This document shows, in pieces, positions 12,889 through 33,674 of a stretch of 64,000 bases of DNA. Position 1 is the first letter of the stretch, and each line of letters starts with the position of its first letter. Both the position numbers and the translations under genes were made by a program. The stretch is from assembly GCA_017642895.1 (NCBI GenBank), contig JAEPON010000003.1, positions 1 to 64,000 of the forward strand, written 5' to 3'. The notes below the pieces were generated by a model. The model did no database searches. It was not told where the DNA came from and worked only from the letters and a program-made list of their open reading frames with translations. The stretch comes from Roseitalea sp. GTDB lineage: Bacteria; Pseudomonadota; Alphaproteobacteria; Rhizobiales; Rhizobiaceae.

Positions 12889-14818
<1,930 letters not shown>

Positions 14819-15000: not shown

Positions 15001-15948
15001 ATGACAGAAGAACGAGACGACGCACCGGCATACGATGGGCAACCGACGCCCATCGACCTCAGCGCGATCGATTCCGGTCGACAAGCCGCATCGCGGCTTG
15101 ACTTGTACGGCCGAACCAGCCAATTGGATTTGGAAGAAATCGATTGGCATTTTTTCCATATCCTCATCAAGACCGTGGTCTTTGAGCGGACGAGCCAGCG
15201 GTTGGACCGTCCGGAGCCAACGGACCATATGAACGGGCGCACATATGATTCCGCCATCGCCAGGATCAAGGCGGCGCTGTATGGAAAGGCGATCATCGAC
15301 GATGATCCGGCCGTTCGGCAGTTTTTTCGCAACGATGGCACGCTCGAATCCAAGCTCCTTCTTCTGGAACGCATCGCCCGCTCGCTGGGCGACGACTGGA
15401 GCGACGATTCGCGCAGCTTTCTCGATGTCACCATCGCCATGGGCCGGCTGCAGCTGCTGCTGCGCAAAACCATGGCTTCGTATGCGCGCCAATACGGCGA
15501 TATCGAGAAGGGCAGCGTCCTGATGACGGGTCCATCCGGCGAAGCGCATCATTTCGGCACCTGCGTCCTTGAAGGGATGTTCAGATCGCGCGGCTGGCTG
15601 ACCGGCATGCTTCAGCACCGGTCCATCTCCGAATTGGTCGAACACCTGACCGCCCGGCGATATGATATTGTCTGCCTGTCATGGTCGACGGGCGTTCTGA
15701 GCGGCATCACGGCCCAAACCATCTCTGCCATCGACGCAATGCCACCGGCCAGCCGGCCGGCCATCATTGCGGGCGGCCAGGCCAGCGCAGGAAACCGGGG
15801 ATGGATGGTGCGTCTGGGCGTTGATCAAGTCTGTGACACGGCTTATGGCGCAATCCAGATGGCCGAATCGCTGCTGGCGAAGCGGCATGCCGTAACGGCC
15901 GGTTCTTCCCCGCCAACCCAAAAAGAGCCCGTCGAAAGGGCCGGCTGA
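15001..15948 (+). CDS. ppaA: PpaA/AerR cobalamin-binding antirepressor of PpsR
   Basis: This is a 315-residue regulator with a B12-binding (SCHIC-type) Rossmann domain from about 170 to 290. The AerR/PpaA-style motif GPSGEAHHFGTCVLEGMF contains H183/H184, one of which should be the cobalamin ligand, in place of the classical DxHxxG. The N-terminal helical part (45-165) matches the family. In Rhodobacter these proteins sense light through cobalamin and relieve repression by PpsR/CrtJ. The gene is six bases upstream of ppsR and divergent from bchF, the usual place. No DNA-binding motif is obvious. The symbol aerR would be equally valid. Confidence 0.9.
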   Translation: MTEERDDAPAYDGQPTPIDLSAIDSGRQAASRLDLYGRTSQLDLEEIDWHFFHILIKTVVFERTSQRLDRPEPTDHMNGRTYDSAIARIKAALYGKAIIDDDPAVRQFFRNDGTLESKLLLLERIARSLGDDWSDDSRSFLDVTIAMGRLQLLLRKTMASYARQYGDIEKGSVLMTGPSGEAHHFGTCVLEGMFRSRGWLTGMLQHRSISELVEHLTARRYDIVCLSWSTGVLSGITAQTISAIDAMPPASRPAIIAGGQASAGNRGWMVRLGVDQVCDTAYGAIQMAESLLAKRHAVTAGSSPPTQKEPVERAG

Positions 15949-15954
15949 GCACTG

Positions 15955-17391
15955 ATGGAAAAACAGGTCTCACGTCACAACCATCGCATCTTCAACCGGT
16001 CGACCCGGCTCTTCGAGCAAGCCGGGCCGCAGGCCAGTGCTTTCCTGGCGTCGGTCGGCGCCGATGTGACGCTGCTGTTGTCCGCCGATGGCGACATTGT
16101 TGATGTCGCCTATCGCGACCCCTCGCTTGAGCGCTATGGCATCGATGGCTGGGTCGGTCGTGCCTTTCGCGACACGGTGACCATCGAGTGCGTTGAAAAG
16201 ATCGATGCGCTGTTCGAGGAGAACGCCAAGACGGGCACGACCCGCCGCCGGCAGGTGAACCATCCGGTATCGGGTCAGGCGGATCTGCCGGTCGATTATA
16301 CGCTTTTGAGCGTCGATGGCATGCCGTGGCGGCTGGCGCTGGGCGAGGACATGCGCAAACTGTCCGAACTGCAGCAGCAATTGGTGCGCACCCAGGCCGA
16401 ACTGGAAGCCGAATACCGCAAGATCAGGGATGCGGAGGGGCGCTACCGGACGATCTTCCATAAGACCGCCCAGGCGATCATCATTGTCGATGGCGACAAC
16501 CATGCGGTGATCGACATCAATCTGACGGGCGCCAACCTGCTTCAACAGCCGGCGGCACGGATCATCGAAAAGCCGGTCCTGCAACTGGTCGAGCGTGAAG
16601 ACCGCGCCAAACTGGCCGACGCGCTCAGCGCCGCGCGTCATGGCGGTACGCGCAAGAGCGTTGCCTTGCACGCCGCCGGCCATCCCGATCCGCTGCTTGG
16701 CGTGATCGAACCCTACCGCGAAAGCGGCCGCGGCAATCTGATGCTGACGCTGGTCGCCGACGCGGCGTCCGCCGCGCAGAGTGCCAATGGCCACGCCGAC
16801 CCGGCCTTGCTCGACAGCTTCCCCGAAGCGCTCGTCGTGATCGACCGCAAGGGCATGATCAGCATCGCCAACGATCCGTTCCTGGACCTCATCCACGTGC
16901 TCAACAAGTCGATGGTCGTCGAGCGCAATCTCAACACCTGGCTGGGCGCCTCCTCGGTCGATCTGCAAGTGCTCCTGTCCCGTGTGCGGGAGGAAGGCCA
17001 GGTTCGCCAGTTTTCGACGGTCATCCGCGACGAACTGGGCACGACCCGCACGGTGGCCGTCTCCGCCGCGCGCATGTCCGGTGATGCCGACAATCAGCGC
17101 ATCGGCGTCTTTATAACCGAGGCAACCCGGCGCGACAGCCAGTTCGCCGTGCCGACGCCGGGCGCCGAGAGCGGTTCGTCGGACTTCGCCGAACTGGTCG
17201 GCCGTGTCCCGCTCAAGGACCTGATCCGCGAGGCGGTCGATGTGATCGAGAAAATGTGCATCGAGGCGGCGCTGCGACAGACCGACAACAACCGCGCCTC
17301 GGCCGCCGACATGCTCGGCCTGTCGCGCCAGAGCCTTTATATCAAGCTGCGCCGGCACGGGCTCGAGGATTTCGGCAACGCCTCGAACTGA
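15955..17391 (+). CDS. ppsR: transcriptional repressor PpsR/CrtJ
   Basis: This is a 478-residue repressor of photosynthesis genes under oxygen. It has an N-terminal PAS-like domain (about 30-115), a glutamine-rich coiled linker (about 133-168, LSELQQQLVRTQAELEAEY), two further PAS domains (about 165-270 and 285-395) and a Fis-type helix-turn-helix (about 437-472, ending LSRQSLYIKLRRHGL). Only two cysteines are present, C79 and C435. C435 (EKMCIEAAL) aligns with the redox cysteine in the HTH of Rhodobacter PpsR. No cysteine lies in the inter-PAS region where the Rhodobacter partner sits. It is co-transcribed with ppaA, and its likely operators precede bchF and bchG. Confidence 0.96.
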   Translation: MEKQVSRHNHRIFNRSTRLFEQAGPQASAFLASVGADVTLLLSADGDIVDVAYRDPSLERYGIDGWVGRAFRDTVTIECVEKIDALFEENAKTGTTRRRQVNHPVSGQADLPVDYTLLSVDGMPWRLALGEDMRKLSELQQQLVRTQAELEAEYRKIRDAEGRYRTIFHKTAQAIIIVDGDNHAVIDINLTGANLLQQPAARIIEKPVLQLVEREDRAKLADALSAARHGGTRKSVALHAAGHPDPLLGVIEPYRESGRGNLMLTLVADAASAAQSANGHADPALLDSFPEALVVIDRKGMISIANDPFLDLIHVLNKSMVVERNLNTWLGASSVDLQVLLSRVREEGQVRQFSTVIRDELGTTRTVAVSAARMSGDADNQRIGVFITEATRRDSQFAVPTPGAESGSSDFAELVGRVPLKDLIREAVDVIEKMCIEAALRQTDNNRASAADMLGLSRQSLYIKLRRHGLEDFGNASN

Positions 17392-17440: not shown

Positions 17441-17458
17441 TGTCAATTCTGATTGACA
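17441..17458 (+). promoter_or_regulatory. PpsR operator overlapping the bchG -35 element
   Basis: TGTCAATTCTGATTGACA is a perfect TGT-N12-ACA palindrome with CAAT/ATTG inner symmetry. Its right arm is TTGACA (17453-17458), which would be the -35 of bchG. A half-site TTTGACAC lies just upstream at about 17427. The -10 is not clear (a TTAGCG-like stretch about 17 bases on). The site is 30 bases before the bchG ATG, consistent with repression by the ppsR product encoded immediately upstream. Confidence 0.8.
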
Positions 17459-26683: not shown

Positions 26684-27056
26684 GGTGGCTGCTCCTGTTG
26701 GGCGGCTCCGCGCTTAGCCCGATCCGGTTCGGCGATCAATTGCCCGGTGCGCATCGGCAGCCGCGCCGGGCAGCCCTTTTCGCGTCAATCGCGAGCGATG
26801 CCCGTGCGTTCAACTCATGGCCACAAAAGCGTTCATTCGTCCGGTTCGCCGGTGTCGGAAAGAGGTGGTGAAAATGCCGCACCATTCATTCCGTCAACGG
26901 GTGTTACAATCGTGGCAACACTGAATTTGCGCGGTTTGATCAACGCTCACGCGCAATATACAGCGGCAATTGCCAGGCGAGATTCGGCTTTGGGGAATTG
27001 CGAAATCGGAAGTGTCACGTTAGGTTGACACTTGACGGGTGATCGGGAGAGCGACG
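26684..27056. other. 373-base intergenic region upstream of fnrL
   Basis: This region between the divergent SDR and fnrL genes contains no credible ORF. Besides the PpsR-like palindrome listed separately it has GTGTT-N11-AACAC at 26901-26921 (a TGT-N13-ACA spacing, one base too long for PpsR) and TTGATCAA at 26936-26943, which is too short to be an FNR box. No terminator or RNA structure was recognised. Confidence 0.6.
27013..27030 (+). promoter_or_regulatory. PpsR-like palindrome directly upstream of fnrL
   Basis: TGTCACGTTAGGTTGACA is a perfect TGT-N12-ACA palindrome with TGTCA/TGACA arms, the same form as the operator of bchG. Its right arm again contains TTGACA (27025-27030). It ends 26 bases before the preferred fnrL start (27057), so a bound protein would sit over the promoter. 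Binding by PpsR is inferred. Confidence 0.6.
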
Positions 27057-27818
27057 GTGCAGAGCAGCAACAATGCCAAGCGCGGAGCGCCGCGCCTCGA
27101 CGTTCACAATTCCGACGTTCCGCTGGTCTGTCGCGCGTGCGAAGCGCGGCACAAGGGCGTGTGTGGATCGCTCACCCCCGAGCAGCTCGTGCAACTGTCA
27201 AAGCACACCACAAAACATGTCTATCGCAGCCAGTCCGAACTGATCACGGTCGGCGACGACGTGCACACCTACTCCAACATCCTGTCGGGCGTGGTCAAAC
27301 TCACCAAGCTGATGGCCGATGGCCGCCAGCAGATCGTAGGATTGCAGTTCGCGCCGGACTTTCTGGGCCGCATTTTCTCATCGCAAAGCACCTATTCGGC
27401 AGAGGCCGCGACCGATGTGCGCGTCTGCTCCTTCCCCAAATCGGTGATCGAGGATCTCGCCCGCTCAGCGCCGAACATGGAACACGCGCTGCACGAGCAG
27501 ACTCTTAAGGAACTGGACGAAGCGCGCGAATGGATGCTGACGCTCGGCCGCAAGACCGCGACCGAGAAGGTGGCGAGCTTTCTTTATCTGATCGCTTCCA
27601 ACATCGATCCCGAACTGGACGAGGACGAGCACACCATCCGGTTCGAGCTGCCGCTCAAGCGCCTCGAGATCGCCGACTTCCTCGGCCTGACGATCGAGAC
27701 GGTCAGCCGCCAGATCACCAAGCTGCGCAAGTCAGGCATCATCGAGCTGGAGAACAACCGCACGGTGATCGTGCCTTCGCTCGCCCGCCTTCAAGGCGCC
27801 TGCGAAAGCGAGCAGTAG
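27057..27818 (+). CDS. fnrL: Crp/Fnr-family oxygen-sensing regulator FnrL
   Basis: FnrL is an O2-labile [4Fe-4S] regulator that activates low-oxygen genes. Starting at the GTG at 27057 (GGGAG seven bases upstream, against an earlier GTG at 27039 without one), the protein has 253 residues. Cluster ligands are visible at C25, C28 and C36 (VCRACEARHKGVC) and C124 (VRVCSFP). A cyclic-nucleotide-like domain follows, then a HTH (about 205-231) with recognition residues ETVSRQ, which are those that read TTGAT half-sites. A matching TTGAT-N4-ATCAA site lies between hemerythrin and ccoN. It is convergent with hemN. Confidence 0.94.
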   Translation: MQSSNNAKRGAPRLDVHNSDVPLVCRACEARHKGVCGSLTPEQLVQLSKHTTKHVYRSQSELITVGDDVHTYSNILSGVVKLTKLMADGRQQIVGLQFAPDFLGRIFSSQSTYSAEAATDVRVCSFPKSVIEDLARSAPNMEHALHEQTLKELDEAREWMLTLGRKTATEKVASFLYLIASNIDPELDEDEHTIRFELPLKRLEIADFLGLTIETVSRQITKLRKSGIIELENNRTVIVPSLARLQGACESEQ

Positions 27819-27863: not shown

Positions 27864-29234
27864 CTAAACCGCCTTTGAGTAGCGGAAGTCGGAGCCCTTG
27901 AGATGCGCGTCGAAACGCGCCGCGACCAACCGCGTGAACGGGCGGGCCGGTTCGGGCACGAAGAAGCCATCCACATCGGCGCCGCAGACGAAATCGGTGT
28001 CGTCCTCGGCGATGGCCATCGCCTCGTTGACGTAGGGTTCTGCGGCATCGCCGAACCGGGTTTCCAGATCATCGAACGATATCCGGAAATCGCACATCAG
28101 CCGCTCGATCATGTGCGCGCGGATACGGTCATCGGCCGACATGCGATAGCCCTTGGCGGCAACGCTCCGGCCCGACCGGACCGCGTCCTGATACTGGCCG
28201 GTGGCAACGATGTTCTGCACATAGCCGCCCTTGAACGCACCAATCGAAGACGCGCCGAACGGGACCAGCGCATGGCACCGGTCGGTCGTGTAGCCCTGGA
28301 AATTGCGCCGCAAATGCCCACTGCGCGCGGCCACGGCCAAGCCATCGCCCGCCTTGGCAAAATGGTCGATGCCGATCGCGTCGTAACCCGCTTCGACCAG
28401 CGCCGCGCCGGCGGCCAACGCCTGTTGGAAGCGCTCATGCATGTCCGGCAGATGCTCGTCCTTGATCATCTTCTGGTGCTTTTTCACCCATGGCACATGG
28501 GCATAGCCGAACAGCGCGATCCGGTCGGGATCGAGCGAAACCACCTGATCGATCGTGCGCATCAGCCGCGGCCGGGTCTGAAGCGGCAGGCCGTAAAGCG
28601 CATCGATGTTGACCGAGCCGACGCCGGCGGCGCGCATCGCCGCGATCACATCGAGCGTCTGCTCGAACGTCTGCGGCCGGTTGATGGCGCGCTGCACGAG
28701 CGGATCGAAATCCTGCACGCCGACGCTGGCGCGTGTCACGCCCAGATCGGCAAGCCCGGTGAGCGTCTCCTCGGTGACATCGGACGGGTCGATCTCGACG
28801 CTGATCTCGGTCTGCGGACCGACATCGAAGACCGCATGCAACGCAGCACCGATGCGTCCCATGTCGTCCGCCGACAGGATCGATGGCGAGCCTCCGCCGA
28901 AATGCACCTGCCCGGCACGTGGCCGAAACCCGAGCGTCTTGCCGAAGTCTCTGATCTCGGCGAGCAGCACGTCCACATAGGTGCGCACGGGCTCATATTT
29001 GAGCGTGTGCTTGGTGTTGCAGCCGCAAAACCAGCAAAGCCGGTCGCAGAACGGAATGTGCAGATAGACCGAGACCGGATCGGTCCCGTTGAGCGCGGCA
29101 CGAAGCTCGGTCTGCATCGCCGGGCCGAGCCCTGATTCGAAATGCGGCGCGGTGGGATAGCTGGTGTAGCGCGGCACCGCCCCGCCCCGCTGCGACAGGA
29201 GCGCGGCGACATCGTGCTTGACGATTTGGCTCAC
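27864..29234 (-). CDS. hemN: oxygen-independent coproporphyrinogen III dehydrogenase
   Basis: HemN is a radical-SAM enzyme that decarboxylates coproporphyrinogen III without oxygen on the common haem/bacteriochlorophyll path. The 456-residue protein has the extended cluster motif CDRLCWFCGC at about 63-72 and the N-terminal PRYTSYPTAPHF typical of true HemN (not the HemW subfamily). It overlaps the hemerythrin-like gene by four bases (ATGA), so both come from the promoter near the FNR box at 29889. FnrL control of hemN is established in Rhodobacter and likely here. Confidence 0.96.
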   Translation of the reverse strand: MSQIVKHDVAALLSQRGGAVPRYTSYPTAPHFESGLGPAMQTELRAALNGTDPVSVYLHIPFCDRLCWFCGCNTKHTLKYEPVRTYVDVLLAEIRDFGKTLGFRPRAGQVHFGGGSPSILSADDMGRIGAALHAVFDVGPQTEISVEIDPSDVTEETLTGLADLGVTRASVGVQDFDPLVQRAINRPQTFEQTLDVIAAMRAAGVGSVNIDALYGLPLQTRPRLMRTIDQVVSLDPDRIALFGYAHVPWVKKHQKMIKDEHLPDMHERFQQALAAGAALVEAGYDAIGIDHFAKAGDGLAVAARSGHLRRNFQGYTTDRCHALVPFGASSIGAFKGGYVQNIVATGQYQDAVRSGRSVAAKGYRMSADDRIRAHMIERLMCDFRISFDDLETRFGDAAEPYVNEAMAIAEDDTDFVCGADVDGFFVPEPARPFTRLVAARFDAHLKGSDFRYSKAV

Positions 29235-29888: not shown

Positions 29889-29902
29889 TTGATCAAGATC
29901 AA
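29889..29902. promoter_or_regulatory. FNR/FnrL box shared by hemerythrin-hemN and ccoNOQP
   Basis: TTGATCAAGATCAA is an exact match to the FNR consensus TTGAT-N4-ATCAA. It lies between divergent units, 68 bases from the hemerythrin-like ATG and 117 from the ccoN ATG. With the class-II distance of about 41.5 bases, starts near 29854 (minus) and 29937 (plus) would both leave normal leaders, so one site could serve both directions. Confidence 0.85.
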
Positions 29903-30019: not shown

Positions 30020-31642
30020 ATGAAAAACGCAAGCTGGATCGTGCTGGTGGGAGCGGGCGCCTTTTTGGCGCTGCTCGGAGCGGCGCTCGGCCAGGACCAA
30101 CTGTTCAGGGTCCACATGGGAATCCTGACCGTCGTGCTGCTCGGCTCGACGGCCGTGCTGTTGCGCACCGCCAAATTCGCGCCCGCTGGCGGCGCTGCTG
30201 CCACCGAATCACAATATTTCGACAATGTCGTGCGCTACGGTGCAGTCGCCACGGTCGCTTGGGGCATCGTCGGCTTTCTGGTCGGCGTCGTCGTGGCCGC
30301 CCAGCTTGCCTGGCCGCAGCTCAACATCGAGCCGTGGTTCAATTTCGGCCGCATGCGTCCGCTGCACACATCGGCGGTGATCTTCGCCTTCGGCGGCAAC
30401 GCGCTGCTGGCCACATCGTTCTACGTGGTCCAGCGCACCTGTCGCGCCCGCCTGTTCGGCGGCGATTTGGCGTGGTTCGTCTTCTGGGGCTACCAGCTCT
30501 TCATCGTCATGGCGGCCACCGGCTATCTTCTGGGCGGCAGCGCCGGTCGCGAATATGCCGAGCCGGAATGGTATGTCGATCTGTGGCTGACGGTCGTCTG
30601 GGTCGCATACCTGCTTGTTTTCCTCGGCACGCTGATGAAGCGCAAGGAGCCGCACATCTATGTGGCCAACTGGTTCTATCTGGCCTTCATCGTCACCATC
30701 GCAATGCTGCACGTGGTCAACAACCTGGCCATGCCCGTCTCGTTCCTGGGCTCCAAGAGCTACTCGCTGTTCGCCGGGGTGCAGGACGCGCTGACGCAAT
30801 GGTGGTACGGCCACAACGCGGTCGGCTTCTTCCTGACCGCGGGCTTTCTGGGCATGATGTACTATTTCGTGCCCAAGCAGGCCGGTCGTCCGGTCTACTC
30901 CTACCGGCTGTCGATCATCCACTTCTGGGCGCTGATCTTCCTGTACATCTGGGCCGGTCCGCACCACCTGCACTACACCGCCCTGCCCGACTGGGCGCAA
31001 ACGCTGGGCATGGTGTTCTCGATCATGCTGTGGATGCCCTCCTGGGGCGGCATGATCAACGGCCTGATGACGCTCTCGGGCGCATGGGACAAGCTGCGCA
31101 CGGACCCGATCCTGCGCATGATGGTGATCGCGGTTGCCTTCTACGGCATGTCGACCTTCGAGGGGCCGATGATGTCGATCAAGGCGGTCAACTCGCTCAG
31201 CCACTACACCGACTGGACCATCGGCCACGTGCATTCGGGTGCGCTCGGCTGGGTCGGCATGATCTCGTTCGGCGCGGTCTACTTCCTGGTGCCCAAGCTT
31301 TGGGGCCGTCAGCGGCTTTATTCGCTGCGCATGGTCAACTGGCACTTCTGGCTCGCCACGCTTGGCATCGTCGTCTACGCCGCCGTCATGTGGGTGGCCG
31401 GCATCCAGCAGGGCCTGATGTGGCGCGAATACAACGATCAGGGCTTCCTGGTTTACTCGTTCGCCGAATCGGTGGCCGCCATGCATCCCTACTACGTGCT
31501 GCGCACGCTGGGCGGGCTGCTCTATCTGGTCGGCGGCCTGATCATGGCCTTCAACATCTACATGACGATCCGCGGAAAGCTGCGTGACGAAATCGCCATG
31601 GGTGAAGAAGCCCCGCAACCTGTCGCCGCTCCGGCCGAATAA
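30020..31642 (+). CDS. ccoN: cytochrome c oxidase cbb3-type, subunit I
   Basis: CcoN is the catalytic subunit of the high-affinity cbb3 oxidase, holding haem b and the haem b3-CuB centre in the inner membrane. The 540-residue protein has about 13 helices. Conserved histidine motifs are visible: [17 protein letters not shown] (about 113-129), [11 protein letters not shown] (CuB region), [15 protein letters not shown], and HVHSGALGW near residue 405. I chose the ATG at 30020 after GAGAGGA. The longer frame to 29936 is unlikely. It heads ccoN-O-Q-P, with ccoO 14 bases later. Expression is probably raised at low oxygen through the FNR box upstream. Confidence 0.97.
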
Positions 31643-33490: not shown

Positions 33491-33674
33491 CGTTTCAGCG
33501 CCAGGCAGTTCCGGAAATGATCGACCACCACTCTTGCCACAATGTCGCAGCGGCCGCCCGGGCCCGGTTGACCCAAATCAACGACCGGTGGGGCCCGTCC
33601 ATTTACAGCGTTTGATATTGTCGGGGGATGCACGCGTCCCCCGGCGCCATAAAGGCCCGTCAAAGAGGCACAGT

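Follow-up and report, generated by a model that had tools for sequence, protein, structure and literature searches.

A predicted PpsR operator on the fnrL promoter in the marine, light-harvesting genus Oceaniradius/Roseitalea

Results

A PpsR-type palindrome, TGTCACGTTAGGTTGACA, lies on the predicted promoter of the oxygen-regulator gene fnrL (27013-27030, plus strand) in a Roseitalea genome and recurs in all five genomes examined from the genus. We consider it likely that this palindrome is a PpsR operator controlling fnrL, and that PpsR represses by covering the -10 element, which would give a feed-forward loop onto bchE and indirect control of the cbb3 oxidase and hemN. Control of fnrL by a PpsR-type repressor had been proposed in an initial annotation of the window (the whole 64,000-nucleotide stretch of DNA analysed here), and the proposal gains support from the motif match and from the conservation in the genus; from these features we infer that PpsR would bind at fnrL, that it would repress rather than activate, and the signals to which it would respond.

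The gene downstream of the palindrome (27057-27818, plus strand) encodes an FNR-family oxygen regulator, recognised by Cys25, 28, 36 and 124 (with a further Cys249) and by the Pfam Crp helix-turn-helix (HTH_Crp_2) and cNMP-binding domains; the four cysteines would bind a 4Fe-4S cluster. Because its score of 218 bits against the NCBIfam FnrL equivalog, a Rhodobacter model (NF045989), falls under the 300-bit cut-off, we treat it as an FnrL-type FNR regulator of Rhizobiaceae and not as the NF045989 equivalog. Its start is most likely GTG 27057, which is kept, together with the upstream ribosome-binding site ATCGGGAGA/ATCGGGAGAA, in all five genomes of the genus; 26 bp separate this codon from the end of TGTCACGTTAGGTTGACA. 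The proposed binder is encoded on the same strand at 15955-17391, where the product scores 346 bits against the PpsR-CrtJ model TIGR02040 (cut-off 275), contains PAS domains and HTH_8 (Pfam), and matches the PpsR structure 4hh2 (7.6e-26); each of the five genomes has a single such match. This PpsR has two cysteines only, Cys79 and Cys435, the second immediately before the DNA-binding helices, where it presumably resembles the redox cysteine of CrtJ. Adjoining ppsR on its upstream side is a gene (15001-15948, plus strand) with a weak Pfam B12-binding match below cut-off, which we take to be PpaA/AerR-like and a possible antirepressor. Products over curated cut-offs in the window are those of ppsR, bchF, bchN, bchG, hemN, ccoN, ccoO, ccoP, and ccoG.

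The sequence quoted in the initial annotation is indeed present at 27013-27030, with an exact TGT-N12-ACA palindrome. This bare form is the weaker evidence, too weak alone: it occurs 14 times in the window against 5.4 expected, a count reached in 0 of 100 shuffles. Across the 4.33 Mb of the organism's own genome, the full form TGTCA-N8-TGACA is found nine times (0 for the reversed control), the looser TGTNAN8TNACA at 22 places (12 for the reversed pattern, from a complete list), and the one-mismatch form 68 times (20 for the control). We then scored the window with a symmetric, 18-bp weight matrix, for which 13 sites bound by PpsR in R. sphaeroides ChIP-seq (PMC4344238) served as the training set. 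Three positions stood apart—the bchG operator TGTCAATTCTGATTGACA (17441-17458, plus strand; 24.0, the best in the window), the operator TGTCAACTTTAATTGACG between bchF, on the minus strand, and the ppaA/aerR-like gene (14801-14818, plus strand; 22.25), and the fnrL site (21.1)—with the fourth reaching only 12.2. BchG and BchF both exceed their cut-offs (NCBIfam for bchG), the TGTCAACTTTAATTGACG operator is accompanied by a weak second site at 14817, and a site of 22.2 was found in the corresponding bchF/ppaA-like region of three genomes (G099, G173, and G199). The score at fnrL falls inside the range of the training sites (13.5-25.6, n = 13) and corresponds to P = 6.7e-8 per position, or 0.0043 expected per 64 kb, under a first-order background, and to about 7e-5 per 330-bp upstream region when the background is the relatives' fnrL upstream DNA. 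The palindrome is thus real, a chance origin being unlikely, and its fit to an independent PpsR motif obtained by experiment is close to that of the organism's own photosynthesis operators; the matrix built from bound sites, placing it beside the bchG and bchF operators, upholds its earlier description as PpsR-type. Several photosynthesis promoters have a second PpsR-type site nearby, and the fnrL operator stands alone, with none near 27013 among the 22 best-scoring positions of the window. A second site is common but not defining, as the R. sphaeroides ChIP table gives one motif for most targets (PMC4344238).

The wider genome places the fnrL site in similar company. Twenty-four candidates were scored there, comprising the 22 TGTNAN8TNACA places and two one-mismatch sites from among the matches listed, and 11 of them reached 21 or more, which makes at least 11 such sites in the genome. 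These strong sites lie at bchE, crtE-like/crtD, bchG, bchI/cytochrome c, dxs (two), bchC, bchF/ppaA-like, an antenna gene recognised by its LHC domain, a contig 32 locus, and fnrL; the crtE-like label stands for a prenyl synthase gene whose matches fall short of their cut-offs. By this measure the fnrL site looks like part of the photosynthesis regulon. The palindrome could instead serve a regulator that has nothing to do with PpsR and whose motif resembles TGTCA-N8-TGACA, given that the simple motif is short and that three perfect copies of the core, not tied to photosynthesis genes, score low (C30:156513, C34:70738, and C38:258708; 11.5-13.8). We regard this as quite improbable: the matrix separates these copies from the fnrL site, at 21.1, and groups the latter with the bch, crt, and antenna operators, and among the fnrL-type loci examined the site occurs only where fnrL is near ppsR. 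Two members of the strong set are of separate interest. The gene dxs, for the first enzyme of isoprenoid synthesis, has its two PpsR-type sites 34 bp apart upstream (contig 26, L189:3019-3070), and the contig 32 site (L187:3423-3440; 24.0) has lnt and a helix-turn-helix regulator gene for neighbours; none of the nearby ORFs tested was recognised as a photosynthesis gene.

Conservation of the site was assessed in the genus Oceaniradius/Roseitalea (Rhizobiaceae), marine light-harvesting bacteria for which five genomes were examined, every one with ppsR. In all five, fnrL and ppsR matches lie 5-10 kb apart and the palindrome is found 43-44 bp upstream of the gene start in the alignment, scoring 21.0-22.9. 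Pairwise identity is 83-100% in the operator and 35-55% in the DNA further upstream, and ungapped invariant columns number 23 of 39 in the promoter-operator block versus 5 of 120 upstream. In one genome (G099) PpsR may be shortened, because the match, in a 432-residue frame, spans only model positions 47-442.

The same block contains a conserved promoter-like pair, TTGCG[AC]-17 nt-TA[GAT]GTT. In the window its predicted -35 element is TTGCGA (26998-27003, plus strand), of which TTGCG is invariant in all five genomes at a fixed distance from the operator, and its predicted -10 element is TAGGTT (27021-27026, plus strand), 17 nt after the -35 and inside the palindrome, again in all five. This promoter is far from consensus—a consensus scan of 26700-27100 returned nothing above threshold and missed the -35 element—so that the call rests on conservation. 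The earlier claim that the operator overlaps the promoter therefore holds for the predicted -10 element, and fails for TTGACA as the promoter element: this hexamer, inside the palindrome, is unlikely to be a -35 because the ribosome-binding region sits 17 bp downstream, and we rejected it on that spacing and on the conserved TTGCG/TA[GAT]GTT pair. We also rejected assignment of the operator to the divergent SDR gene, as at one locus (L039) the site is still present with no SDR match in the flanks searched.

A site covering the -10 element in all five genomes has a geometry that fits repression. PpsR might nonetheless bind with an activating or silent effect, for example at a buffer site or through an AerR-like partner, and published systems offer instances of both: aerobic activation of ccoNOQP by CrtJ is reported, 101 of 108 aerobic CrtJ ChIP peaks are described as being without change in nearby expression (PMC5362033), and two R. 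sphaeroides PpsR targets are given as bound yet not differentially expressed (PMC4344238). Against the conserved geometry, we hold an activating or silent PpsR site to be unlikely, and favour repression.

We next compared 116 distinct fnrL-type loci (138 before duplicate removal), including the five of the genus and four below 50% identity; this set is a subset of all matches, one search having matched 120 of 199 genomes, from which 30 loci were taken. None of the 111 other distinct loci had a site scoring above 13.2, so that equal conservation of the palindrome in relatives lacking ppsR, the result named beforehand as refuting the link, was not found. The top value belongs to two Rhizobium strains (L097 and L108), in which a weak PpsR-like palindrome, TGTCAAATCTTTGCGACA, lies about 125 bp before fnrL and begins 22 bp downstream of where an FNR box starts. 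FNR-type boxes (TTGAN6TCAA) are in fact frequent here, with one within 300 bp upstream in 66 of the 116 loci, and TGTCACGTTAGGTTGACA itself contains TTGAC, which might suggest that the palindrome is a variant FNR box through which FnrL regulates its own gene. Its half-sites, however, are oppositely oriented (GTCA...TTGAC instead of TTGA...TCAA), and the 400 bp upstream of fnrL proved free of TTGAN6TCAA boxes in each of the five genus genomes; autoregulation through TGTCACGTTAGGTTGACA was rejected on the half-site orientation, and we give it almost no weight.

Possession of ppsR extends beyond the genus. A ppsR match was found in 54 of 394 family genomes, five of them belonging to the genus, and 26 of the other 49 also have an fnrL-type match (two at only 33% identity). 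At the fnrL-type loci taken from these ppsR-bearing relatives, no operator was found: a core with fewer than two mismatches was absent from all 30, the bare TGT-N12-ACA form occurred within 90 bp upstream in two (L017 and L134), and the best score among the 23 loci matrix-scored after duplicate removal was 11.9. This absence is not a failure of the matrix, because in every one of the 24 ppsR-bearing family members whose fnrL match is good, the matrix finds one or more sites scoring at least 17 in the region around ppsR. Photosynthesis genes were recognised in the fnrL flank at 3 of 80 named loci (flanks of up to 10 kb, some shorter), and these three correspond to the genus. From the relatives' loci and these flank counts, therefore, the operator seems to belong to the lineage in which fnrL lies beside the photosynthesis cluster. 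The conservation expected of a PpsR-fnrL link is accordingly seen in the ppsR-bearing genomes of the genus and not in the ppsR-bearing relatives examined outside it, and for this reason we describe the link as genus-specific rather than general.

In other families the picture was mixed. There, 26 ppsR-bearing genomes were considered, 19 with an FNR-family match, and in three of the 19 the 400 bp upstream of the FNR-family gene contain a site scoring 17 or higher, against 0.009-0.015 expected. Orthology of these three genes is uncertain, as they are 36-50% identical to the FnrL of the window. The strongest site, a perfect PpsR-type palindrome scoring 24.7 (L171:1227-1244), is in a distant phototroph (G640) and was not seen at the other 11 of the 12 matched loci of its family. 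The weaker two are at L157:1320-1337 (17.3) in G489, between hemN and the FNR gene and in a family represented by one genome, and at L163:1388-1405 (17.5) in G421. As a positive control outside the family, sites near ppsR were sought in three genomes, and G421 was the one without a site of 17.

Candidate indirect targets lie downstream of fnrL in the window. These are hemN (27864-29234, minus strand; TIGR00538, 390 bits, over cut-off) and the cbb3 oxidase gene set, beginning with ccoN (30020-31642, plus strand; TIGR00780, 788 bits) and continuing with ccoO and ccoP, both over cut-off. Between ccoN and the divergent hemerythrin-hemN genes is an exact FNR box, TTGATCAAGATCAA (29889-29902, plus strand), also found in the other four genus genomes; a second exact box, TTGACCCAAATCAA (33568-33581, plus strand), lies upstream of ccoG, whose product is over cut-off, and is found in three of the other four (thus four of five in all, the contig of the fifth ending before that position). 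These boxes lend support to the earlier suggestion that FnrL drives cco and hemN, and we expect, from their sequence, that FnrL would use them. At the bchE promoter (contig 7 of the organism's own genome, L188:4117-4142), all five genomes carry a PpsR site and an FNR box that overlap, with TGTCAA as the shared bases and with scores of 24.1-27.8 for the PpsR site. Among the other strong PpsR-type sites of the organism's own genome whose surroundings were examined, none had an FNR box nearby. In a ppsR-bearing relative (G303, L233:862-912), the start of a PpsR-type site (21.5) is 37 bp from that of an FNR box. A 2009 conference paper reportedly dealt with PpsR and FnrL elements computed for four purple bacteria.

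Discussion

We propose that PpsR, encoded 10 kb away, would bind TGTCACGTTAGGTTGACA and cover the -10 element, and that the bound protein would deny RNA polymerase access to the fnrL promoter. Relief of PpsR would raise fnrL transcription, and FnrL, which would assemble its iron-sulfur cluster only at low oxygen, would activate cco together with the hemerythrin-hemN pair by way of their FNR boxes. At bchE, PpsR would repress directly through the site overlapping the FNR box, competing there with FnrL; by also lowering FnrL itself, it would gain an indirect hold on the cbb3 oxidase and hemN. With two routes from PpsR to bchE, one direct and one by way of fnrL, the circuit would form a coherent feed-forward loop.

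The individual parts of this scheme resemble known systems. As at bchC of R. capsulatus and bchF of D. shibae, where PpsR/CrtJ sites are described over the -10 and -35 elements (PMC5362033, PMC10890935), a TGT-N12-ACA palindrome here overlaps the predicted -10 and a PpsR-CrtJ equivalog is encoded nearby; unlike at these Rhodobacter and Dinoroseobacter promoters, the target would be an oxygen-regulator gene, fnrL, and there is one site instead of a pair. A PpsR operator (predicted here) at the gene of a global redox regulator also recalls R. sphaeroides, in which PpsR is reported bound upstream of prrA, although prrA is a two-component response regulator gene and its site starts with CGT (PMC4344238), whereas the target here would be of the FNR family and the site is conserved across the genus. 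The FnrL and CrtJ/PpsR arms are also wired together transcriptionally in R. capsulatus, where FnrL is said to activate aerR (PMC4634722), but in the opposite direction: there FnrL acts on the CrtJ antirepressor, and here PpsR would act on fnrL.

For the PpsR-fnrL edge itself, the model species give no precedent, because the 19 PpsR ChIP-seq sites tabulated for R. sphaeroides include prrA and not fnrL (PMC4344238) and R. capsulatus fnrL is termed constitutively transcribed in the text of PMC5643017; expression of PpsR and FnrL in R. sphaeroides is likewise called almost invariant (PMC4344238). In line with the initial annotation, which knew of no description of such a link, we found no report of PpsR control of fnrL in the open-access article text covered by the search, though CrtJ may conceivably bind at R. 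capsulatus fnrL.

The published view, as far as these sources present it, draws FnrL and PpsR as parallel inputs to photosynthesis genes, with fnrL expression nearly constant. A direct wire from PpsR to fnrL would mean that, in this genus, the repressor of photosynthesis also governs respiration and haem synthesis. It would offer a clean case of regulatory rewiring, in that the genus has an operator at fnrL, a position left vacant in the ppsR-bearing relatives examined, whose PpsR sites are near ppsR. With such wiring, the level of the oxygen regulator may also be set by light and redox signals. On balance we lean towards the view that fnrL, a neighbour of the photosynthesis cluster in this genus, has come under PpsR, with the oxygen regulator thereby ranked below a light/redox repressor, and that through the feed-forward loop with bchE the light or redox state would jointly gate bacteriochlorophyll, the cbb3 oxidase, and haem synthesis of the oxygen-independent kind.
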